Source of the DNA: Bacillota bacterium
Lineage (GTDB): Bacteria > Bacillota > Sulfobacillia > Sulfobacillales > Sulfobacillaceae
Reading direction: 5' to 3'
Length of the DNA: 64,000 bases
NCBI GenBank assembly: GCA_023511625.1
Contig: JAIMBD010000001.1
Coordinates: 1-64,000 of the forward strand
Every line of letters begins with the position of its first letter. The stretch's first letter is position 1. Shown piece after piece: positions 59,842-61,035 of this stretch. The notes under the pieces were generated by a model. The model had not been told where the DNA came from. It saw only the letters and a list, made by a program, of their open reading frames with translations, and searched no databases. Position numbers and translations under genes: made by a program.

Positions 59842-59922
59842 CTGCATGAAGAGACGGGCCACAGCGGGAATGAGGGAGCCCCTGGCATCGTTTCTACAAG
59901 ATTCCCGAAGGGAGGGATGGGC

Positions 59923-60339
59923 GTGGGCGAGAAGACGGCCGCGCATTACACCGTGGACACGGCCCTGTCCGTGGACGCAGCCATCCGAGCGGTGGAAAAA
60001 GCTCTGGCGGCTCGGCAGTTTGGCGTGCTGTGGCACCTCGACATCTCGGAAAAGTTGAAGGAAAAGGGGCTTTCCGGTGGTCTCCCGTTTCACATCCTCG
60101 AGGTGTGTTCGCCCCCACGTGCCCAGGCGGCCTTGAACACCAACCAAAAGGTGGGCTACTTTTTGCCCTGCAAGGTAGTGGTCTACGCCACCGACGCCGG
60201 CAATACCCGCATCGGCCTCTTGCGGCCCCGCTTGATGACCGACCTCTTGGCAGACCCGCGCCTAGACGCCTTGGCCGATGAAGTGGACGCGCTGTTAAGC
60301 GCCGCCATCGAAGAGGCCGCGTCCGGGGCGTCGGCCTAA
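59923..60339 (+). CDS. DUF302 protein
   Basis: The 138-residue protein belongs to DUF302: YTVDTALSVDAAIRAVEKALAARQFGVL at the start, then HILEVCSPPRAQAAL with a conserved Cys and a C-terminal helix. The family is small, cytosolic and uncharacterised, often found near CsoR/CstR regulators and sulfur-transfer genes. GTG 59923 is chosen because GGGAGGG abuts the ATG at 59917. It is 21 bp upstream of the glutaredoxin selenoprotein gene and shares its promoter. Confidence 0.82.
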   Translation: MGEKTAAHYTVDTALSVDAAIRAVEKALAARQFGVLWHLDISEKLKEKGLSGGLPFHILEVCSPPRAQAALNTNQKVGYFLPCKVVVYATDAGNTRIGLLRPRLMTDLLADPRLDALADEVDALLSAAIEEAASGASA

Positions 60340-60360
60340 AAAACCAGAAGGGGCGAGAGC

Positions 60361-60597
60361 ATGGTCACGGTTTACACCACGCCGACCTGACCCCACTGCC
60401 GGAACGTCAAGCGCTACCTGCAGGAACGCAAGGTGCCGTTTCACGAGGTGGACGTCACCAAGTCAGAGGCGGGCCTCAGGGCGCTGATGCGCAAGTCCGG
60501 CCAGACCGGGGTTCCGGTCATCGATGTCAACGGCAAGATCGTCGTCGGTTTCGATCGCGCCAAGTTGGACCGCGCGTTGGGGTTGCGGTCGGGCTGA
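60361..60597 (+). CDS. Glutaredoxin-like selenoprotein with in-frame UGA (Sec) at the active site
   Basis: From ATG 60361 (ribosome site AAGGGGCGAGAG) the frame reads MVTVYTTPT, TGA at 60388-60390, then PHCRNVKRYLQ and on to LGLRSG and TGA at 60595-60597. That is 78 residues if TGA is selenocysteine. U10 takes the first Cys of the CPHC motif; C13 is kept. The rest is an intact glutaredoxin fold with the cis-Pro segment TGVPVID and KIVVGFDRAKL. Selenocysteine glutaredoxin-like proteins are known in Bacillota. It would reduce disulfides or peroxides. A nonsense mutation of a Cys codon is the alternative. Confidence 0.82.
60411..60429 (+). promoter_or_regulatory. Candidate bacterial SECIS hairpin
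   Basis: GCG-CTA-CC-TGCA-GG-AA-CGC can fold into a hairpin with loop TGCA centred about 30 nt after the UGA and with a G at loop position 2. These properties are expected of a bacterial SECIS. It is proposed by eye; CTGC (60396-60399) with GCAG (60420-60423) gives a competing fold. Confidence 0.35.
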
Positions 60598-60744: not shown

Positions 60745-61035
60745 ATGGAAGAACGCCAAGTATTCTGGAAAGAAGACGAACTGAAGCATCGGCTGCGCCG
60801 CATCGAAGGTCAGATCCGGGGCATCGGGGCCATGATCGACCGCCAGGAGAGCTGCCACGCCATCCTGATGCAGGTCGCAGCCGTGCGCGGGGCGCTGGAC
60901 AAAATCGCCAAGATCATCGAGGCCTGCAGCGTCGCCGAAGGGCTGTTGGGCCTTCCCGGAGAAGACCTGAGCGACCGCGCTCGGGTCCAGGCGGTGTTAA
61001 GCCGCGTCGTCGAAGGCAAAGAGCCCTCCTCCTAA
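60745..61035 (+). CDS. CsoR/RcnR-family (DUF156) transcriptional repressor
   Basis: The 96-residue helical protein matches DUF156: LKHRLRRIEGQIRGIGAMI, then ESCHAILMQVAAVRGALDKI and a third helix. Such repressors are tetramers released from DNA by Cu(I), Ni, formaldehyde or persulfide. C37 is conserved. At the usual His and second Cys ligand positions of CsoR (25 and 29 residues later) it has S62 and G66, with another Cys at 61. The inducer is therefore probably not copper. It is next to DUF302 and the selenoprotein gene, with a shared operator. Confidence 0.88.
   Translation: MEERQVFWKEDELKHRLRRIEGQIRGIGAMIDRQESCHAILMQVAAVRGALDKIAKIIEACSVAEGLLGLPGEDLSDRARVQAVLSRVVEGKEPSS

Follow-up and report, generated by a model that had tools for sequence, protein, structure and literature searches.

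Genome surveys have already described glutaredoxins that carry selenocysteine (Sec, U) in a UxxC motif, namely the Grx selenoprotein family of Zhang et al. 2006 (Geobacter, Moorella and Alkaliphilus; PMC1794560). As far as the available text of that paper goes, these selenoproteins are PF00462 glutaredoxins with UxxC, like the protein analyzed here, and no Sulfobacillus relative is found among them. According to a 2026 review (PMC13188914, citing it as ref. 85), the biochemistry of a selenoprotein glutaredoxin was treated by Kim et al. 2011. The UXX-star (seleno)proteins are likewise glutaredoxin-like with Sec at active-site position 1. We analyzed a 64,000-nucleotide stretch of DNA (the window; bases 1-64000 of contig C3) from a draft genome of 2.6 Mb (completeness 97%, contamination 2%); among the records found, Sulfobacillus harzensis is its closest named relative. 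We are highly confident, from sequence, that a gene in this window encodes a dithiol-type glutaredoxin in which Sec, inserted by recoding of UGA, replaces the N-terminal nucleophilic Cys (U10-P-H-C13). Several observations lead to this conclusion: the reading frame and its fold family, where exactly the UGA falls, purifying selection on the sequence after it, the exchange of UGA and Cys codons in relatives, and the presence of Sec machinery. The gene is a further member of the already known kind of Sec glutaredoxin and not a new kind. For this lineage of acid-loving bacteria, some of them bioleaching, it is an additional conserved selenoprotein. A literature search combining Sulfobacillus and selenoprotein returned nothing relevant, and the literature found on the lineage mentions Sec only for formate dehydrogenase and a peroxiredoxin.

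The glutaredoxin coding sequence spans 60361..60597 on the plus strand. With TGA read as U, it translates into 78 amino acids, MVTVYTTPTUPHCRNVKRYLQERKVPFHEVDVTKSEAGLRALMRKSGQTGVPVIDVNGKIVVGFDRAKLDRALGLRSG, followed by a terminal TGA (79 codons in total). The sole internal stop is the TGA of codon 10 (60388..60390, plus strand), which as Sec10 would occupy active-site position 1 and aligns with the Cys codon (TGC or TGT) of Cys-form orthologues. The resolving Cys13 of the UxxC motif is encoded at 60397..60399 (plus strand). A Shine-Dalgarno-like AGAAGGGG is seen at 60346..60353 (plus strand), 7 nt upstream of the ATG. The first-pass annotation had described an intact 79-codon frame with a good ribosome site, broken only by TGA at codon 10, and the translation together with this upstream element confirms that description. 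The GC content at third codon positions was 0.89-0.90 both 5' and 3' of the TGA. No ordinary open reading frame of at least 70 aa covers the frame 60361-60597, and a standard gene finder would therefore miss the gene, as had been predicted. Note that the gene's own stop codon is also UGA, so UGA is not simply reassigned in this genome.

Family searches placed the protein firmly among the glutaredoxins. With Cys placed at codon 10, the Pfam Glutaredoxin model PF00462 matched over its full length (E 1.2e-19, 70.6 bits against a cut-off of 22.9), bearing out the earlier statement that a complete glutaredoxin continues beyond the TGA. A stop-tolerant family search of the genome recovered the gene independently at 60.3 bits (cut-off 22.9) with the annotation '1 TGA'. 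The protein also passed the cut-off of the NCBIfam model for YruB-family glutaredoxins (TIGR02196; 97.1 bits against 88.55), whose name and description are silent on any Sec form. Membership in the UXX-star group was rejected, as all four models tested (NF041212, NF041114, NF041211 and NF047338) scored under their cut-offs, the subfamily model NF041212 reaching 59.8 against 66 and the others falling far below. The best sequence match in the PDB was 7c10, the dithiol glutaredoxin cGrx1 of Clostridium (Alkaliphilus) oremlandii (E 1.2e-16). In the alignment the TCPHC of cGrx1 stands opposite the TUPHC of the window protein, the xPHC motif being common to both. We take cGrx1 to be the Sec-containing glutaredoxin of C. 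oremlandii, an assumption with which the title of Kim et al. 2011 agrees. The host of cGrx1 belongs to another lineage, whereas the window protein comes from a Sulfobacillus-type Bacillota. A plasmid search yielded only relatives less than 60% identical.

To determine how codon 10 varies, we compared orthologues. An orthologue was detected in 32 of 34 family genomes, with one in-frame TGA in 25 and none in the remaining 7 (Cys forms). In all, 49 distinct sequences were read, 26 with UGA and 23 with Cys, the latter set taking in archaeal and spirochaete relatives. Codon 10 was TGA, TGC or TGT in every case, and codon 13 was TGC in all 26 UGA forms. The exchange of U and C at active-site position 1, which the first-pass annotation gave as a trait of glutaredoxin-like selenoproteins, thus holds at exactly codon 10 in near and distant relatives. 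Two more glutaredoxins of the source genome also carry UGA at the catalytic Cys. UGA coincides with the codon for the catalytic Cys in 26 different orthologues and in these two additional genes, which excludes chance.

The same comparison bears on the possibility that the TGA really terminates translation, with the frame being a recent pseudogene or the product of a sequencing error. Draft assemblies do carry errors and the gene is short. However, the identical UGA is present in 26 distinct sequences, always at the catalytic Cys, and no additional stop within codons 1-75 and no frameshift was found in any of the 49 distinct homologues, close or distant. Moreover, comparison of the region after the UGA with a genus-mate gave a dN of 0.027 and a dS of 0.78 (dN/dS ~0.04). 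The sequence 3' of the UGA is under purifying selection. A pseudogene or sequencing error, which we regard as wildly improbable, is refuted by this conservation. An internal ATG at Met43 raises the alternative that translation restarts downstream and yields a shorter protein. Such a product would lose the active site, yet YTTPT-U-PHCR, before and around the UGA, ranks among the most conserved stretches of the aligned homologues, leaving a restart with a negligible probability.

Translation of codon 10 as Sec requires a dedicated machinery, which the first-pass annotation had supposed to lie outside the window. The source genome contains selA (473 bits), selB (GTPase domain and C-terminal winged helix within one frame), selD (367 bits; C9:5570-6499) and one tRNA-Sec (72.9 bits) with a TCA anticodon (UCA), a long variable arm and G73. 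The selD gene has an in-frame UGA of its own, which is a known pattern. All four components are encoded on contigs other than that of the window, in a draft with 2% contamination; selA and tRNA-Sec recur across the family. Decoding of UGA as Sec by this organism is thereby supported, and the absence of sel genes or tRNA-Sec, named beforehand as an outcome that would speak against it, was not what we found. In the proposed mechanism, SelA and SelD would make Sec-tRNA-Sec, and SelB with Sec-tRNA-Sec would recode the UGA at codon 10, directed by an RNA signal, presumably a SECIS, just 3' of it. The selenol of Sec10 may then attack its substrates (disulfide, glutathione-mixed or persulfide), and the selenenyl-sulfide so formed would be resolved by Cys13.

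An opal-suppressing, tRNA-Sec-like tRNA-Cys of the selC* type could in principle read the UGA as Cys, in which case the protein would be an ordinary Cys glutaredoxin. Such tRNA-Cys species are already known, Firmicutes included (PMC7609411), and the tRNA-Sec model picks up long-arm tRNA-Cys genes in seven relatives. However, these genes have GCA anticodons, and U73 wherever the structure was drawn. The only strong tRNA-Sec match in the source genome has TCA and G73, the latter being the discriminator of Ser/Sec identity, and a strong match to a tRNA-Sec-like tRNA-Cys was absent from this genome. The presence of selA and selD in the source genome also argues against tRNA-Cys suppression. Based on anticodon and discriminator base, opal suppression by tRNA-Cys was ruled out, and we assign it only a very slight probability. 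As a separate observation, the selC*-type tRNA-Cys genes (GCA, long variable arm) of the seven relatives stand alongside a normal tRNA-Sec.

The codons immediately after the UGA (codons 11-17; 60391..60411, plus strand) are strongly fixed in UGA forms at Arg14 (CGG) and Lys17 (AAG), as would be expected of an RNA-level signal and probably reflecting one. The Arg14 codon was CGG in 24 of 25 UGA forms, whereas CGG accounted for 53 of the 165 remaining Arg codons in these genes (p 5e-10, with kinship ignored). Lys17 was encoded by AAG in 24 of 26 UGA forms but in only 5 of 12 Cys forms (p 0.0017, again ignoring kinship). Codon constraint 3' of the UGA was greater in UGA forms than in Cys forms, which suggests constraint at the RNA level directly downstream of the UGA. 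A candidate bSECIS hairpin is located at 60412..60438 (plus strand), with the loop AGGAAC at 60422-60427, 31 nt past the UGA; it fits the generic bSECIS limits given in PMC13188914, at -8.2 kcal/mol. In a separate hairpin scan of the same stretch the best value was -10.3, which 13 of 200 synonymous shuffles reached, while 41 of 200 (~20%) met the energy limit. The check for a bSECIS after the UGA, proposed in the first-pass annotation, was thus borne out only in part: a hairpin fits the published generic model, but such hairpins are frequent among synonymous shuffles. RNAalifold on the 26 UGA forms found essentially no single conserved SECIS hairpin, and a scan over all possible stems returned only short ones. 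The mean z of the best hairpin was -0.87 for UGA forms and -0.37 for Cys forms, a difference that is not decisive. We infer a SECIS downstream of the UGA, with the codon constraint supporting an RNA signal and the hairpin at 60412..60438 as a candidate.

We next considered how Sec and Cys are distributed in the lineage. All 25 genomes with a UGA form contained selA and/or tRNA-Sec. A natural control is provided by two genomes of one genus (G002 and G003; 96-97% complete), where neither selA nor tRNA-Sec was found and the glutaredoxin is a Cys form; the Sec trait was apparently lost in this genus. On the rpoB tree of the family, the seven Cys forms do not make one clade, and explaining the Cys label takes 5 changes, of which well-supported branches force at least 4. 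The tree of the short glutaredoxin gene likewise needs 5 changes between UGA and Cys, with at least 3 forced. UGA and Cys have changed 4-5 times across the family tree. Two other families of the same order also hold UGA forms, as judged from TGA counts rather than from individual positions. With UGA forms in sister families and Cys forms nested within, repeated change from Sec to Cys is the simplest reading; some copies of the gene may have moved by gene transfer. Sec at codon 10 appears to be the ancestral state in the order, and the Sec form appears to have been long conserved in the lineage and repeatedly replaced by Cys, once along with the Sec machinery. The review PMC13188914 describes changes from Sec to Cys in bacteria as rare and as concerning mainly FdhA and SelD. 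Apparently ancestral Sec with several Cys replacements, one of them accompanied by loss of the machinery, makes this lineage a good test case for why bacteria keep or abandon selenium. Note that one genome from another family of the order (G035) has two copies of this glutaredoxin, one with UGA and one free of stops, at C1:2062479-2062706 and 2135038-2135265.

The genomic neighborhood offers a clue to function. The glutaredoxin gene is preceded by a gene for a 140-aa DUF302 protein (59917..60339, plus strand; PF03625, E 2.5e-17) and followed by one for a CsoR-family repressor (60745..61035, plus strand; PF02583, E 1.4e-17); DUF302 and CsoR-family genes adjoin the glutaredoxin in the window as well as in the majority of the nearer relatives. 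In the neighbor alignment the linked repressors of the window and of the relatives keep two conserved Cys and lack the copper-site His, a CstR-like ligand set. We assume that a two-Cys CsoR-type repressor of this kind resembles the persulfide sensor CstR. Suggested by the two-cysteine repressor and the DUF302 neighbor, a role of the glutaredoxin in thiol or persulfide homeostasis is plausible.

Beyond the window, the source genome encodes a candidate selenoprotein in which an RluA-type pseudouridine synthase domain is fused to a UxxC glutaredoxin (C3:93969-94814). Of nine family genomes searched, eight contain the fusion, six of them with UGA and two with Cys; the Sec-less G003 yielded no copy. 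RluA-type enzymes have their catalytic Asp as the second D of HRLD; this residue is replaced in all 8 fusions. A confident structure model of the fusion (pLDDT 91.7) matched RluD, RluC and RluA, and its last part matched cGrx1. The HUGP/GUXX-star fusion model matched only the glutaredoxin part. The literature search found no paper joining selenoprotein, pseudouridine synthase, glutaredoxin and fusion, and the protein has apparently not been described before. We consider it fairly probable that this is an undescribed selenoprotein, kept family-wide, composed of an RluA-type domain minus the catalytic Asp and a UxxC glutaredoxin, which may act as a selenol redox module on an RNA- or ribosome-binding platform. 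If so, the family would, through the window glutaredoxin and the fusion, naturally document repeated reversal from Sec to Cys. Also outside the window, at about C3 83864-84127 (minus strand on its extracted locus), is a third UGA glutaredoxin of this genome, 87 aa long and with the motif UGPC.
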